A DNA stretch of 64,000 bases, taken from assembly GCA_022652985.1 (NCBI GenBank), contig JALCRY010000004.1:1-64000 (forward strand), written 5' to 3'. The position numbers and the translations under genes are program-made. Below, in pieces: positions 2,390 through 9,597 of this stretch; within the stretch, counting starts at the first letter, position 1; every line of letters begins with the position of its first letter. The notes beneath the pieces are model-generated. The model worked only from the letters and a program-made list of their open reading frames with translations. It was not told the DNA's origin and made no database searches. The stretch comes from Eubacteriaceae bacterium (GTDB lineage Bacteria; Bacillota; Clostridia; Peptostreptococcales; Anaerovoracaceae).

Positions 2390-2437
2390 TTGACATAGAA
2401 GATACACTTGTTTATTATTGTGTTAGTTAAAACTAAC
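2390..2437 (+). promoter_or_regulatory. feoAB promoter with overlapping DtxR-like palindrome
   Basis: TTGACA (2390-2395) and TATTAT (2413-2418) are spaced by exactly 17 bases. Directly after the -10 lies the inverted repeat GTTAGTT (2422-2428) AA AACTAAC (2431-2437), covering the probable start site. TTAGTTA-type arms resemble the TTAGGTTAG half-sites bound by DtxR/IdeR iron repressors. Repression of feoAB in iron-replete cells is the inference. Confidence 0.7.
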
Positions 2438-2455
2438 TCAACACGGAGGGATACG

Positions 2456-2677
2456 ATGACACTGGACCTAGGAAAGCCCGGATCGACATATATTATCAAG
2501 GGTATGAAACTGCCGCAGACGATAGAAAAGCATCTGGAAGCGCTCGGCATGACATACGGAACGAAAGTGGATGTATTGAATAATAAAAGCAAAGGGACTC
2601 TTATCATAAAAGTACGCGGGACACGGTTTGCCGTCGGCAGAGGGATATCCGGCAATATAGAGGTGAGCGACCGATGA
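2456..2677 (+). CDS. feoA: Ferrous iron transport protein A
   Basis: This 73-residue protein has the FeoA layout: G-x-x-Y-I-I-K-G near residue 10-17, a LEALGMTYGTKVDVLN core and a closing R-G-T-R-F-A-V-G-R-G-I strand. That is a small SH3-like fold known to interact with FeoB in Fe(II) import. The start at 2456 follows ACGGAGGG at proper distance; a longer frame from 2408 would begin inside the promoter palindrome. Its stop overlaps the feoB start (ATGA), so the two are translationally coupled. The upstream DtxR-like palindrome suggests iron repression. Confidence 0.92.
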   Translation: MTLDLGKPGSTYIIKGMKLPQTIEKHLEALGMTYGTKVDVLNNKSKGTLIIKVRGTRFAVGRGISGNIEVSDR

Positions 2678-4740
2678 CGGCAGTAATGAAACAGGATGCG
2701 ACGATCGGATTTGTAGGAAATCCGAATTCCGGCAAAACAACGCTTTTCAATGCTTTCAGCGGAGCCAACCTGAAAGTCGCGAACTGGCCGGGTGTTACGG
2801 TCGAAAAAGTAGAAGGCATGATGAAGTTCAAGAATCAGCGTTATAAACTCGTTGATCTTCCCGGAACTTACAGTCTTACGTCATATACTATGGAGGAGCA
2901 GGTAGCGAGAAATTATATTCTCAGCGACGATGTCGATGTCATAATCGATGTAGTCGATGCTTCTTCGCTGGAGAGAAATCTTTATCTTACGCTGCAGCTG
3001 CTGGAACTGGGGAAACCTGTAGTTGTGGCCCTGAACATGATGGACATCGTCGAGAAGAGAGGCCTGGAGATCGATATGCACAGGCTCCCGGAGATGCTGG
3101 GAGTACCGGTCATTCCTGTATCGGCAAGAAAACGAAAAGGTCTCGGCGTTCTGATGCATGCGGCTCATCATCACATCAATGCGAAGCATCCTGATAAGCT
3201 CATACACGGACATGATTATACATCGGCGAAGGACTCGAAGCATGCCCATGAGCATCACCGCGACTACACCATGGTATACAGCGATAAGATAGAGGATAAG
3301 ATCGATCTGATAATCGATGAGCTGCGTAAAAAATATCCTGAGATCAGAAATTACAGGTGGCATGCTCTCAAGCTTCTGGAGAGAGATCAGGAAATAACCG
3401 CCAGATATCCGGTGGATCTGCCCGCTGTCATCGACAGGAGTTATGAGTCTGATATAATCAATGAAAAATATGATTTCATCAGTGAAATAATGAATGAAGT
3501 CATAATGAACAGGGCTGAAAGAGAAGCATCTACCGATAAAGTGGATGCGGTACTTACGAATAAATACTGGAGCATTCCGATTTTCCTGGGAATAATAGGA
3601 GTGGTCTTCTTCCTGACATTCTTTGTCGGGGATTTCTTCAAGGCATATTTTGAAATCGCCATAAGCTGGCTCGGAAAAGCCGCGGCATCGGGATTGATGT
3701 CCGCCGGTGCATCACCGGGGCTTATCGCGCTGATCACGGACGGGATAATTGCGGGTGTCGGGAGCATCCTGACATTCCTGCCGAATATTTTCATGCTGTT
3801 CCTGGCGCTGGCATTTCTGGAAGACAGCGGCTATATGTCGCGGGTAGCCTATGTAATGGACGGCATCATGGGGCATCTGGGTCTGTCCGGCAGGGCTTTC
3901 ATCCCGATGATCCTCGGATTCGGATGTACGGTGCCGGCGATCATGGCTTCCCGGGCGCTGGAAACGAAAAAAGATCGTTTCCGGGTAATGCTGATCACGC
4001 CTTTCATGTCGTGCAGCGCCAGACTGACCGTTTATATCCTTTTCTCCGAGATGTTTTTCCCGCAGCATGCCATGCTGGCAGCATACTCGCTGTATCTCAT
4101 AGGATTTGCAATGGCTCTGCTGGTCGCCTTCATCATTCATCTTTTCGACAAAGAGGAAACAGAACATCAGCTGCTGATCGAACTGCCTGAATACAAGGCG
4201 CCGAGCGCCAGGACTGTGCTCATATATGTCGGTGAAAAAGTAAAGGATTATCTTTCCAAAGCAGGCACAATAATATTTATAGCTTCCATAGTCATGTGGT
4301 TCATAATGAATTTCGGGCTGCACGGCTACACACAGGATGTCTCACTGAGCATCGGCGCGCAGATAGGAAAGGCTATCGTTCCTTTCTTCAGGCCTCTGGG
4401 ACTTGGATACTGGCAGCTGGCTCTTGCTCTTATCGCAGGGATATCGGCGAAGGAAGTAGTGGTATCCAGTACAGCGGTACTGTACGGAGTTTCGAATATT
4501 AATGCAGCGGCGGGGATGAGCACTCTGGCGGGGCTTCTGGGAGCATCCGGATTCACAGCGCTCAATGCTTACTGCCTGATGATATTCTGTCTCCTTTATG
4601 TGCCGTGCGCAGCGACGCTGGCCGTAATAAAGCGTGAATCCGAAAGCTGGAAATGGACGGGTTTTGTGGCTCTGTTCCAGATATCCGTTGCATGGGTCGT
4701 TACATTCGCGGTATATCATATCGGGACTCTGTTTATTTAA
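2674..4740 (+). CDS. feoB: Ferrous iron transporter FeoB with His-rich linker
   Basis: This 688-residue Fe(II) membrane transporter has an N-terminal G domain: G1 GNPNSGKT at 15-22, DLPG at 61-64 and NMMD at 121-124. A helical region follows, then the FeoB_C/Gate membrane segments starting around residue 300 (FLGIIGVVFFLTFFVG, then the FGCTVPAIMAS and GISAKEVVVSS gate motifs). Length is ordinary for the family. An unusual feature is a linker at about 162-195 with eleven histidines and a HxH/HH pattern, a plausible metal-binding stretch between the G domain and the membrane part. The start overlaps the feoA stop. No feoC-like gene follows. Confidence 0.96.
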   Translation: MTAVMKQDATIGFVGNPNSGKTTLFNAFSGANLKVANWPGVTVEKVEGMMKFKNQRYKLVDLPGTYSLTSYTMEEQVARNYILSDDVDVIIDVVDASSLERNLYLTLQLLELGKPVVVALNMMDIVEKRGLEIDMHRLPEMLGVPVIPVSARKRKGLGVLMHAAHHHINAKHPDKLIHGHDYTSAKDSKHAHEHHRDYTMVYSDKIEDKIDLIIDELRKKYPEIRNYRWHALKLLERDQEITARYPVDLPAVIDRSYESDIINEKYDFISEIMNEVIMNRAEREASTDKVDAVLTNKYWSIPIFLGIIGVVFFLTFFVGDFFKAYFEIAISWLGKAAASGLMSAGASPGLIALITDGIIAGVGSILTFLPNIFMLFLALAFLEDSGYMSRVAYVMDGIMGHLGLSGRAFIPMILGFGCTVPAIMASRALETKKDRFRVMLITPFMSCSARLTVYILFSEMFFPQHAMLAAYSLYLIGFAMALLVAFIIHLFDKEETEHQLLIELPEYKAPSARTVLIYVGEKVKDYLSKAGTIIFIASIVMWFIMNFGLHGYTQDVSLSIGAQIGKAIVPFFRPLGLGYWQLALALIAGISAKEVVVSSTAVLYGVSNINAAAGMSTLAGLLGASGFTALNAYCLMIFCLLYVPCAATLAVIKRESESWKWTGFVALFQISVAWVVTFAVYHIGTLFI

Positions 4741-4795: not shown

Positions 4796-6310
4796 TTGAT
4801 TGGATATACGTGTAAGTATGCACCGGTCGAGCTTTTGCAGGCTCTAGGCGGCCAGTGCGTTTTCATAGATGAAGAAATTCCCGATTCTGAGGGCGATAAT
4901 GATATCGCCAGACTCAGAGCCATAAAATACGCCAGGCAGCTTCTGCTTAAATGCAGGGATTCGGGGATAAAGGAACTGGTAATAACCGGCTGCAGCGATA
5001 TTTCGCAGAGAGCATATGATATTCTGCGCGTCGGCAATGACTTCAGGTTTTTATTCTATTTTGATCTGCCTTATATGGGTGACCGCATGGCGGCCATGCA
5101 GTTCAAGGGCGAGTTGATAAGATTCATGCAGGAATACTCTTCGTATCACGGAGAAGATCTTCTGATGGAGGATTTTCTGAAGCGTTTTGCTTTTGCGTTC
5201 ACCGGCGAAGAGAAAATGGCCAGCAGCAAGTGCGGCTTCATACGTCATCTCGATATGCCGGAAGGGCAGCTGACATTCGATGAACTCATGGAATGGTATG
5301 CCGGCGAACTTCTGGCGCAGGAGCCGTGCGTAAGAATGGGCGGCGTCATCGAATCCGAGAGTGCCGCGGAAGCCGAAGCAGAAGAAAGTGAAACTGAGGC
5401 CGCCGGTCAGGAGAATATAGAGGAAGTACCGGAAGTAACGGAAGTGCAGGAAGAGGAGCCTCAGACTGCGGCGGAAGATCTCCCGGTAGAAAATGCCGGC
5501 GCAGAGGAAGCGTCAGACGATGAGGAAGAAGAAACCGGTGAGATCTTCGGAGGAGCCGATATCGGATATTCCTTCACGAAGGCAGTAATAGTCAGCAGCT
5601 CGGGAAAGGTGTGCGGCAGGGCGTGCGTTCCTTCGACGGGTGATGCCGGACTGGACGTACTCAAGGCCTTCGGCATGATACACGATGAATCGGGGATAAA
5701 TGTTGAGGACATTACAGCCGTCACGGCATGCGGAGAAGGCGCTGATAAAGTCGACTTTGTGACTGACGTGAAGAGCGGCAGAGAATGCATGATCGAAGGC
5801 GCGCTGAAAAGTGTTCCGGATGCCAGGACAGTTCTTGATGCGGGCGCTCATGCCAACAGATTGTATACTCTGGGAAAAAGAGGAGAATTGAAGCAGTCTG
5901 TCTATGCTTCCGAATGCGCGGGAGCGGCGGGAAAATTCCTGGAAATGACTGCCGCTGAACTGCAGATCGGACTGGATGAAATGTCATCGCTCGGCCAGGA
6001 GTGGGAAGAAGAGCTGAAGCTGTCGGGAACCTGTGCGGTGTTCGAAATGTCGGAGATCAAAGCTATGGCTGTCAGGAATCTGGCCTATGCGGATATCATC
6101 CACGCAGCTGATGCCGCTTATGCGGCGAGGATCAGCGAGATCATGGCGAAAGCGAGAGTCAAAGCGCCGGTTGTTATTGCCGGAGGAGCGGCCGAGGATC
6201 TGGCAGCTGTCAGAGCAATCGAAGATAAAACAGGGATAGAGCTTATTATTGCGGATGAGCCGAAATACTGCTGTGCTTTGGGCGCGGCACTGCTGGCGGC
6301 CGCAAGGTAG
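4796..6310 (+). CDS. Fusion of a 2-hydroxyacyl-CoA dehydratase-like segment with a degenerate BadF/HgdC-type ATPase
   Basis: This is a 504-residue two-part protein. Residues 1-~175 (opening IGYTCKYAPVELLQALGG) resemble part of the HgdB/HgdD 2-hydroxyacyl-CoA dehydratase subunits. Residues ~180-250 are a Glu-rich linker. Residues ~253-504 follow the BadF/BadG/HgdC activator ATPase fold: DIG at 255-257, a CAGAAGKFLE cluster motif with Cys374, and CAVFEMSEI with Cys413. The 39-residue Cys spacing equals that of the [4Fe-4S] cysteines of Acidaminococcus HgdC (127/166). The phosphate-2 motif usually written DIGGQD reads DAGAHA at 348-353, so ATP hydrolysis may be altered. The start is TTG at 4796 behind GGAGGT; an ATG at 4791 leads at once to a stop. 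Function is unproven; an electron-activating or regulatory role is conceivable. Confidence 0.65.
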   Translation: MIGYTCKYAPVELLQALGGQCVFIDEEIPDSEGDNDIARLRAIKYARQLLLKCRDSGIKELVITGCSDISQRAYDILRVGNDFRFLFYFDLPYMGDRMAAMQFKGELIRFMQEYSSYHGEDLLMEDFLKRFAFAFTGEEKMASSKCGFIRHLDMPEGQLTFDELMEWYAGELLAQEPCVRMGGVIESESAAEAEAEESETEAAGQENIEEVPEVTEVQEEEPQTAAEDLPVENAGAEEASDDEEEETGEIFGGADIGYSFTKAVIVSSSGKVCGRACVPSTGDAGLDVLKAFGMIHDESGINVEDITAVTACGEGADKVDFVTDVKSGRECMIEGALKSVPDARTVLDAGAHANRLYTLGKRGELKQSVYASECAGAAGKFLEMTAAELQIGLDEMSSLGQEWEEELKLSGTCAVFEMSEIKAMAVRNLAYADIIHAADAAYAARISEIMAKARVKAPVVIAGGAAEDLAAVRAIEDKTGIELIIADEPKYCCALGAALLAAAR

Positions 6311-7034: not shown

Positions 7035-7417
7035 TGACATACGAAAGAGCTAAGATAATAACGAGTCTTATGCTCGTTGAAGGCATGACGGACGAGGCGC
7101 TCAGATCTTTTCTGGATTATTTTGGAGACAGTATATATGATGATCCGCAAAAGACGACTGAAGAGCTGGCATTCCTTAAAAACGAGTATCCGGAGATCGA
7201 GGTCCCGGAACCGTTCATGATGGATGTAATGATCGTCAAAGCAGATGCTGTTATCGGGAAAGCGCACAGCAAAGGCATAGAGGTCACAGATCCCGACCCG
7301 TCGGACCCCGGTCAGGAAGGTGCGGTCTATTGCTTCTCATACGGTGACTGTGCCTGCCGAAAAACAGTTCCTGTCAGGACGATTGCTGATTTCATGAAAT
7401 ACAGAGATCTTATATAA
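7034..7417 (+). CDS. Protein of unknown function in the 4796-7417 operon
   Basis: This 127-residue soluble acidic protein matches no family that I recognise. The N-terminal half is probably helical (YERAKIITSLMLVEGMTDEALRSF). Near the end is a compact cysteine set, CFSYGDCACRK, within the last 30 residues, which could bind metal or form a disulfide. The ATG at 7034 overlaps the stop of the B3/B4 gene, with GGAGG four bases before it; a GTG at 7031 is too close to that site. It is the last gene of the operon and is followed by a bidirectional terminator. Context links it to the two genes upstream without defining a role. Confidence 0.7.
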   Translation: MTYERAKIITSLMLVEGMTDEALRSFLDYFGDSIYDDPQKTTEELAFLKNEYPEIEVPEPFMMDVMIVKADAVIGKAHSKGIEVTDPDPSDPGQEGAVYCFSYGDCACRKTVPVRTIADFMKYRDLI

Positions 7418-7427
7418 CGAATAAAAA

Positions 7428-7480
7428 AAGGCTTTGCACCGGCGGACAGATCATCCGCTGATACAGAGCCTTGTTTTTTT
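7428..7480. terminator. Bidirectional terminator between convergent genes
   Basis: AAGGCTTTG (7428-7436) pairs with CAGAGCCTT (7464-7472, one G-T pair), around an inner GCGGA/TCCGC hairpin. A runs precede it and T runs follow, so it can serve the plus-strand operon and the minus-strand nitroreductase gene. Confidence 0.8.
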
Positions 7481-7484
7481 AATT

Positions 7485-8003
7485 TTATACTCTTACGACA
7501 TAGTCTTTCTTGCGCGGTGAAGCTTCGGGATACTCGCAGTTTCTGTATCCGAGGCAGCAATGTCCGACCCCGGCATAATCGCCTTCGATGCCCCATTTTT
7601 TGAGCAGGGCTTTTCCTTCCTCGCTGGCAAATTCTTCCTTTGCCCGGTGCACCCAGATCGAGCCGATCCCCAGTGAATGGGCCGCATTCATAAGATTTCC
7701 AATAACAAGAGCGCCGTCTTCAATGTAAGTGTTTACATTTTTATCGGCAAGAACGACGAGTACTGTCGGAGCTCCGTAAAAAGGATCCGTGTCAGTACCG
7801 AGGATTTTTGCATTCATCGCGGACAGCTGAGCAATCGTTTCTCTGTCCTGTATTACGACGATTTTTGCCGACTGAGCGCCTCTGCCGTTCGGCGCGTACA
7901 TCCCTGCAGTCAGGATATCGTCAAGATCATTTTCCTCGATCTGCCTTGACCCGAAACTTCGTATACTTCGTCTGTCTACCATGTTCTGTATGACTTCATT
8001 CAT
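7485..8003 (-). CDS. Nitroreductase family protein
   Basis: The 172-residue product has the FMN-dependent nitroreductase pattern: RRSIRSFGSRQIEENDLDDIL at the N-terminus, APNGRGAQSAKIVVIQD, GALVIGNLMNAAHSLGIGSIWVH in the middle and GHCCLGY near the end. It would act as a cytoplasmic dimeric flavoprotein reducing nitro compounds, quinones or related substrates with NAD(P)H. The physiological substrate cannot be told from sequence. The start ATG at 8003 is preceded by AGGAGGT in the minus strand. The gene stands alone, divergent from the secreted NlpC/P60 gene, with a TATAAT on the minus strand at 8034-8039. Confidence 0.88.
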   Translation of the reverse strand: MNEVIQNMVDRRSIRSFGSRQIEENDLDDILTAGMYAPNGRGAQSAKIVVIQDRETIAQLSAMNAKILGTDTDPFYGAPTVLVVLADKNVNTYIEDGALVIGNLMNAAHSLGIGSIWVHRAKEEFASEEGKALLKKWGIEGDYAGVGHCCLGYRNCEYPEASPRKKDYVVRV

Positions 8004-8088: not shown

Positions 8089-9597
8089 ATGTCATTGAAA
8101 ACATGCAGCCGCAGGAGTTTTTATTCTATAATCATGACTGCAGTAATATTATTTATTGCAGCCGCCGTCTTTATTTTAGTACCGTCAGATGCACATGCCG
8201 CGTCGGGTCCCGTCCCGCAGGTGACTGTGACGTCCGATGCGAAACTTGTGATTTTCTGGACGGCCCCTGCAGATGCAGGATCGAGGACACATTACGTGCT
8301 CAAACGCGTCGACAGCAAAAAGAACGTGACGACTGTCGATATCACCAACGGCAAAACATCCTATACGGAAGATCTTGATTCACTGACCGATAAATACAAT
8401 TACAAATATGCTGTGGCGTATTACAGCGGTTCCGATCTGAGCAGTTTCAGCAGTTACACATATCTCGGATATGTTTACAGACCGCTGGATCTTACGATGA
8501 AGAAATCGGCGCTCACAATAAATGCGGGCAGGAAGCGGACGCTCAGATTGTACACGAGCCCGATAACAACTGTCGACATGCCGTTCTACCAGTATTACTA
8601 CACCGGGAGAGGCTTCTGCGACACTTCGATAAATATGGCGAGCAGGAGAGTGCATCTCTACGGATACTGGAGTTCGTCCAATGAATCTGTGGCTTCGGTT
8701 TCACAGACCGGACAGATAACGGCTGCCGCGCCGGGAAAGACGACCATAACCTTTAAATCTGTATTCGGCAGAAGCGCTTCCGCGGAAGTAACTGTTCCGG
8801 GGACCGATACGATGGAAGGCAGCATTTATATTCTGGAGAAAAACGAGCTGATCAACAAGACGATACTGGGTTCCAAGCTGATGATCAAGGGAACTCAGAA
8901 CAGACTGAACGGAACGGTCAAAGCCAACTACACAATAAACAAGCTGTATTTTGAAATCACAAATTCGCAGGGGCAGGTGACCGATTCATATACGAAGTAT
9001 GTGGGCGCAAAGACATATAATCTTGCCAAAGCTTCGGTTTATGTTCCTTTCAGCAGCGCAGGCAAAGGCCTGCATTACATAAAAATCTATGCGGATTATA
9101 AGTCGGATGTTTTCGGCGCCGGCGCAAGGCAGAAGATATATTCGGAGAAGTTCCGGGTTTACGGAACATCGGCGGAGTATCTGGCTAAAGCGAATCTGAC
9201 GAAGGGCGAGGCGATAGCAAAATGGGGGACTCTGAGGATAGACGACCCGTACAGCCAGTCTGCAAGAGGCACATCCAATTACACCGACTGCAGCTATCTT
9301 ACGCTGTGGGCGGTTAGGCAGGTGCTTGGCAATAACGATTATTCGGAGCAGCCGCGCGCCGATCTGCAGTATAAGTATATTGTCGCTCAGGGCGGTACGC
9401 TGAGCAAGTCGCAGCTCATGCCGGGAGACATGATTTGTTATGTGAACGGTTCGTCGTTTTACTACAAAAAAATCGGGCATATCGAAATCTACCTGGGAAA
9501 TAATCTTACGGTAGGTGCAGGTACGCCGGGATACACCCTGATAGATACATACAAAAAAACGCCGTGCACTAAAATATTGTACGGCAGACCTTATTAG
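8089..9597 (+). CDS. Secreted NlpC/P60-type peptidoglycan hydrolase with Ig-like domains
   Basis: The 502-residue product has a signal peptide (basic start, hydrophobic segment 14-32, cleavage near AHAASG). A fibronectin-like segment follows (about 45-130), then a BIG_2-type bacterial Ig domain (WSSSNESVASVSQTGQITAAAPGKTTITF), a middle beta-rich region without clear match, and a C-terminal NlpC/P60-like domain. In that domain YTDCSYL carries the probable nucleophile Cys401 and KIGHIEIYLG carries His464. The likely role is cleavage of wall peptides outside the cell. The LMPGDMICY strand before the His fits the family. An RBS (AAAGGGGAGA) precedes the start. Its stop overlaps the convergent Nudix gene by four bases. 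Confidence 0.85.
   Translation: MSLKTCSRRSFYSIIMTAVILFIAAAVFILVPSDAHAASGPVPQVTVTSDAKLVIFWTAPADAGSRTHYVLKRVDSKKNVTTVDITNGKTSYTEDLDSLTDKYNYKYAVAYYSGSDLSSFSSYTYLGYVYRPLDLTMKKSALTINAGRKRTLRLYTSPITTVDMPFYQYYYTGRGFCDTSINMASRRVHLYGYWSSSNESVASVSQTGQITAAAPGKTTITFKSVFGRSASAEVTVPGTDTMEGSIYILEKNELINKTILGSKLMIKGTQNRLNGTVKANYTINKLYFEITNSQGQVTDSYTKYVGAKTYNLAKASVYVPFSSAGKGLHYIKIYADYKSDVFGAGARQKIYSEKFRVYGTSAEYLAKANLTKGEAIAKWGTLRIDDPYSQSARGTSNYTDCSYLTLWAVRQVLGNNDYSEQPRADLQYKYIVAQGGTLSKSQLMPGDMICYVNGSSFYYKKIGHIEIYLGNNLTVGAGTPGYTLIDTYKKTPCTKILYGRPY

Follow-up and report, generated by a model that had tools for sequence, protein, structure and literature searches.

The gene that begins 55 bases downstream of feoB in the window (the whole stretch of 64,000 nucleotides that was analysed) encodes a truncated HgdB/HgdD-like module joined by an acidic linker to an altered activator ATPase. 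It almost certainly descends from a longer dehydratase–activator fusion. As an acyl-CoA dehydratase or reductase it very probably no longer acts. The best explanation, which has about an even chance of being correct, is a maintained Fe–S/ATPase protein whose CoA dehydratase role is gone and which has been repurposed, probably for iron or redox homeostasis. Its features suggest that an old component of a radical enzyme has acquired a new role. Coordinates of the gene, of its parts and of its neighbours are compiled in Table 1.

Table 1. Coordinates in the window of the fusion gene, its parts and the neighbouring features
Feature	Position	Strand	Evidence or remark
feoA	2408–2677	+	PF04023 E=1.3e-13
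feoB	2674–4740	+	PF02421 E=1.8e-65, PF07664, PF17910
Whole gene, truncated dehydratase-like/activator fusion	4796–6310	+	504 aa, TTG start
N-terminal HgdB/HgdD-like module, residues 1–181	4796–5338	+	hhalign to parent half, alignments
Cys6	4811–4813	+	Equivalent to BzdN Cys36; predicted distal ligand, kept
Cys66 and Ser67	4991–4996	+	Cys66 kept; Ser67 in place of ligand Cys equivalent to BzdN Cys100
Cys146	5231–5233	+	Equivalent to BzdN Cys263, kept; Arg150 (+4) equivalent to BzdN Arg267
Cys178 in PC(V/M)RM motif	5327–5329	+	Equivalent to BzdN Cys293, kept
Acidic linker, residues 182–250	5339–5545	+	Replaces C-terminal lobe with last proximal ligand
Altered activator ATPase, residues 251–504	5546–6307	+	PF01869, TIGR00241, PDB matches
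Second phosphate motif DAGAHA, residues 348–353	5837–5854	+	DLGGRG in G001; DIGGQD in 40/40 parents
Cys374	5915–5917	+	Activator cluster ligand position, kept
Cys413	6032–6034	+	Activator cluster ligand position, kept
B3/4-domain protein, 237 aa	6321–7034	+	PF03483 E=1.1e-25
Orphan, 128 aa	7031–7417	+	Conserved C-terminal YGDCAC; overlaps B3/4 gene
Hairpin then T run	7422–7482	+	Probable terminator of feoA-to-orphan operon

Gene layout and domain evidence

The reading frame is open throughout, and its TTG start is preceded by GGAGGT and falls on the same residue in relatives. Separate domain searches of the two halves, proposed as a check in a first-pass annotation of this DNA, gave a strong answer at one end and a weak one at the other. 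The C-terminal half is an ATPase of the BcrAD_BadFG/HgdC type (PF01869, E=2.3e-25, 90.1 bits against a cut-off of 31.5; TIGR00241, E=2.3e-34, 119.1 bits, just under the cut-off of 125.4; PDB 4eht, E=8.8e-28). The N-terminal fragment matches PF06050 at E=0.028, with 14.4 bits in the window genome (G000) and 19.4 bits in its congener G001 against a cut-off of 28.4; the match spans residues ∼1–120 of 342 and the domain is incomplete. Profile–profile comparison with full-length relatives is decisive (hhalign probability 99.9, E=5.4e-37, 182 columns) and bears out the annotation's view that the first ∼175 residues, here ∼181, are a fragment of HgdB/HgdD. Its Glu-rich linker was also correctly described and comprises 69 residues, 25 of them Glu. 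Over the full chain, tblastn against a parental fusion (locus L049) gives E=1e-50, with identical order of the fused parts.

Taken by themselves, the two truncated N-termini matched no PDB profile up to E=5, and the window protein has no Pfam match to DUF523 (TudS) up to E=1. AlphaFold, run on a two-sequence alignment of the window protein and one congener, reached a pLDDT of 38 for the full chain and 64 for the N-terminal part, where one model of five was good. A PDB fold search gave no match at E≤0.001, HadBC standing at rank 39 (E=0.37). Models of this quality are too weak for an assessment of Cys geometry and carry no weight in the conclusions.

The ortholog in G001, a same-genus metagenome-assembled genome (MAG; CALDNM010000202.1, ‘uncultured Clostridia bacterium’), lies at locus L053 and has 512 residues, its N-terminal part being ∼75–78% identical. 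An assembly error or chimera is ruled out by the recurrence of the gene and its neighbours in this independent MAG at 75% identity. Horizontal transfer is likewise rejected, the GC and GC3 of the gene being those of its neighbours.

The parental two-gene cassette

The N-terminal part was searched in relatives through family, order, class and phylum, covering ∼1,200 distinct genomes. This search revealed a two-gene cassette, common across Bacillota, in which a catalytic-type dehydratase subunit of ∼425 aa is followed by a fusion of 540–670 aa that combines a complete dehydratase-like half with an intact activator ATPase. The first-pass annotation was right to see an altered fusion with a fragmentary dehydratase part; fusion as such is not the unusual feature that it was taken to be, being a common architecture in Bacillota. 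What is new, therefore, is that the chain is truncated, the partner gene lost and the ATPase altered, a form so far restricted to this genus. The count of genomes that it proposed divides along the same line: the truncated form occurs only in the window genome and G001, 2 of the ∼1,200, with feoB, the B3/4 gene and the orphan as neighbours in both, but the parental fusion is common.

In all 40 parental loci analysed the partner (PF06050) is adjacent and on the same strand, often with a 4-base overlap. It carries three invariant Cys (123, 151 and 369 in L049) that align with the region of BzdO Cys95/128/380, HMMER placing the second one residue off, at C129 and not C128. In BzdO the cluster bound by these Cys occupies the position of the proximal sub-cluster (PMC11971306). 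The dehydratase half of the fusion has seven Cys that are invariant in 40/40 sequences (6, 43, 66, 67, 169, 201 and 230), six of which align with BzdN Cys36, 73, 100, 263, 293 and 327, the ligands of the [8Fe–9S] double-cubane cluster (PMC11971306). Given these six ligand matches and the BzdO-like Cys of the partner, the cassette is predicted to be a compact form of class I reductase/dehydratase whose double-cubane subunit is fused to its own ATPase. Among the papers searched, no characterized member was found.

Examples of the cassette are L049:4504–7400 and its equivalents (L008–L043, L084–L091), and in the genera viewed its neighbours are unrelated housekeeping genes, such as hppA and tpiA in L049. 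Matches to the N-terminal module also occur in short ORFs of 109–221 aa (G1018:C3:75859, G1104:C1:411271, G801:C29:12860 and G931:C21:101). These short frames may represent genes that are split, frameshifted or cut off by a contig end, or modules that stand alone. Elsewhere in the window genome, two activator-type ATPase domains occur together in one protein of ∼1430 aa, which is encoded at L046 (G000:C1:26000–36000) and is present in 7/7 family genomes checked.

Losses in the window genus

The dehydratase half of the window gene consists of parental residues ∼1–136 and ∼164–204 joined together; residues ∼137–163 and everything beyond ∼205 are missing. Neither the window nor the contig of G001 gave a credible tblastn match to the partner gene or the missing lobe. 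No PF06050 protein was found in the 94%-complete G001 genome, and the sole one of the window genome is part of a different HgdB-like/activator pair, located on contig C35. The gene is almost certainly the descendant of a fused subunit, a BzdN-like chain with a BzdQ/HgdC-like ATPase, that would once have been paired with a BzdO-like catalytic subunit. In trees with the parents the ATPase branch of the pair is too long (∼10 changes per site) and support for placing the N-terminal part is weak, so that no precise parent is named.

Parental Cys6, 66, 169 and 201 are retained in both species (6, 66, 146 and 178 in window numbering). Lost in both are Cys43, replaced by Ile, Cys67, replaced by Ser, and Cys230, which lay in the deleted lobe. 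All six Cys of the N-terminal module are common to the two species. When the BzdN ligands are divided by alignment and elimination into a proximal (73/100/327) and a distal triad (36/263/293), the window protein keeps 3/3 predicted distal ligands and has lost 3/3 proximal ones. If three of six were lost at random, the chance of losing exactly that triad would be 1 in 20, which is suggestive but does not settle the matter. The retained Cys146–Cys178 island has deletions on both flanks, and window Arg150 aligns with BzdN Arg267, a residue beside the distal sub-cluster (PMC11971306). Measured against double-cubane proteins (DCCP and BzdN; NF040772), three of six cluster Cys are present, as a distal-type triad; at the equivalents of BzdO 95/128/380, expected for a proximal [4Fe–4S] cluster, stand I43 and S67, and the third is deleted. 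A [4Fe–4S] cluster at the distal site is predicted tentatively from these residues, at somewhat less than an even chance. Two segments that give the cluster cavity its form are absent, so the three-Cys site may not assemble.

The ATPase has changed in another manner. As the first-pass annotation stated, both activator Cys are present with their 39-residue spacing, and DAGAHA stands in place of DIGGQD; the Cys pair is also conserved in G001. Of the 83 positions invariant in the parents, 33 remain in both species. On the strength of the Cys pair, an activator-type [4Fe–4S] cluster is predicted to be still bound, probably, by the ATPase dimer.

A probable feo operon as genomic context

The genes that follow feoA and feoB are on one strand, with gaps of 55, 10 and −4 bases between feoB, the fusion, the B3/4 gene and the orphan. 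The hairpin has a folding energy of −23.9 kcal/mol (ViennaRNA, region 7416–7485), though it is absent from the consensus-scan listing. From the short gaps, the single strand and the hairpin with its T run, the feoA-to-orphan genes likely form one operon. The order feoB–fusion–B3/4–orphan recurs in G001, again with feoB directly upstream. The orphan has no Pfam or NCBIfam match and, among 196 relatives searched, is present only in the two congeners. Further downstream, positions 8089–9597 of the window encode a probable secreted protein with Big_2 and NlpC/P60 domains, which adjoins the operon in G001 too.

The first-pass annotation had noted the B3/4 protein and the orphan, both indeed downstream, and its suggestion of repurposing was a fair guess, but it missed the feoA and feoB genes immediately before the fusion. 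The gene order shared by two genomes points to a role tied to iron uptake or Fe–S homeostasis, a proposal put forward with a little less than even confidence. A literature search found nothing describing this fusion or linking Feo with this family.

Selection and rival explanations

One rival explanation is slow decay: the cassette would be disappearing from the genus and the frame would be open by chance. Within the family the cassette is patchy, matching in 47/350 genomes, and decay is a real fate for it (ALTERNATIVES): in genome G384, frameshift and deletion have disrupted the partner and the fusion alike. There (L047:3808–6475) the partner shifts frame near residue 170–180 and the fusion lacks residues 30–86 and changes frame; two congeners of G384 have no PF06050 protein. 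In the window genus the partner is absent and the ATPase evolves very fast, with tree tips of 2.03 and 1.52 against a median of 0.20, ∼ten times faster than relatives. Yet the frame is open in two species despite synonymous divergence near saturation, and the gene order is shared. For residues 1–181, comparison of the two species gives dN 0.17, dS 1.85 (near saturation) and dN/dS 0.094, pyruvate carboxylase giving 0.068, and the tree tips are 0.16 and 0.10 (median 0.26). The ATPase, with pN 0.32 and pS 0.82 (saturated), is under purifying selection still, much looser. Within the genus the N-terminal part is 78% and the ATPase 50% identical; in parental fusions the opposite holds, the ATPase being the more conserved half in 10/10 pairs. 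The main constraint now bears on the N-terminal piece and no longer on the ATPase, which speaks against a dying gene, in which a fragment would not be held more tightly than the ATPase, and for a changed function. A frameshift relic, which the first-pass annotation had named as one outcome that would overturn its reading, is contradicted by the intact frame in both species and by the strong purifying selection that acts on the N-terminal part. Decay is accordingly improbable, and the gene is highly likely to be maintained and functional.

Two further explanations accept a maintained gene. The N-terminal module may bind no cluster and serve in protein or nucleotide binding, with the ATPase as a non-catalytic scaffold or regulator, for example of FeoB. 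The module lacks three of the six ligands and the greater part of the C-terminal lobe, the P2 motif is altered differently in each species and constraint on the ATPase is relaxed, all of which suit this proposal; it is harder to reconcile with a Cys146–Cys178 piece kept between two deletions, with its Cys and Arg150 conserved, and is considered unlikely, though a serious contender. The protein might instead inject electrons in the ordinary ATP-driven way, with a second dehydratase-like protein of the cell as its target in trans, since the activator Cys, the first phosphate motif (DxGxSxTK, here DIGYSFTK), the DxG of the second (D348/G350) and the adenosine-loop GG are all kept, and the window genome also has the C35 pair. 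That pair already has its own activator, however, and Gln386 and Asp387 of DIGGQD are gone in both species. Because the 94%-complete G001 lacks any PF06050 protein, this possibility is very improbable.

Comparison with known systems

Compared with the Bacillota cassette, the window form shares the fusion order, the N-terminal start, Cys6/66/169/201 (parental numbering) and the activator Cys; it lacks the partner gene, two dehydratase segments, the proximal ligands and GGQD, and adds the acidic linker and an upstream feoB. With class I benzoyl-CoA reductase (BzdN/BzdO/BzdP/BzdQ; PDB 8S02; PMC11971306) it has in common a BzdQ/MbdQ-like ATPase and a BzdN-like module in which Cys36/263/293 have their counterparts, but it is a single chain without a BzdO-like subunit, proximal ligands or CoA site. 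HadBC/HgdAB with HadI/HgdC (3O3M, 4EHT, 1HUX) show the same ATPase fold, a Cys pair 39 apart and homology in the N-terminal domain. Whereas 2-hydroxyacyl-CoA dehydratases (HAD) are described as retaining a proximal-type cluster, the window form retains ligands of the other site only, and is without DIGGQD and a second subunit. DCCP and DCCP-R (6ENO, 7YYL) have distal-type ligand positions and a related ATPase; the window form differs in being fused and truncated, with three of six cluster Cys. The one-domain thiouridine desulfidase TudS (PMC10611767) sets a precedent, in that its BCR/HAD-type domain is truncated and has a [4Fe–4S] cluster with three Cys. TudS has no activator ATPase fused to it, and the window protein has a different Cys spacing and no DUF523 match.

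Proposed mechanism and implications

In the reading preferred here, of a repurposed Fe–S/ATPase protein, the chain would dimerize via the ATPase, with a [4Fe–4S] cluster bridging at Cys374/Cys413. At what used to be the distal site, the N-terminal module would carry one [4Fe–4S] cluster, held by Cys6, Cys146, Cys178 and perhaps Cys66. The proximal site, nearest the lost catalytic partner, would be gone, and acyl-CoA radicals would therefore no longer be made. The ATPase could be a slow or non-hydrolysing conformational switch and not a fast electron pump, and the whole a nucleotide-bound Fe–S redox or sensing protein serving the Feo iron-uptake operon. It is tempting to propose, as a rather unlikely but specific form of this reading, that the distal half was kept on a linker-tethered mini-domain with a modified ATPase and was recruited to the Feo operon as an ATP/redox-responsive iron or Fe–S sensor. 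Equally speculative is that a BCR/dehydratase Fe–S fold reduced by loss of its proximal half would be an undescribed form, the mirror image of BzdO and the 2-hydroxyacyl-CoA dehydratases.

Dehydratase–activator fusions with a complete predicted double-cubane site are widespread in Bacillota, and the superfamily is described as diversifying through loss of the outer half of the double cubane. If the proposal is true, loss of the inner half together with the partner, under selection, would be a second evolutionary route. It would also mean a non-metabolic use for the parts of an ATP-driven electron-transfer system, beside iron-uptake genes.
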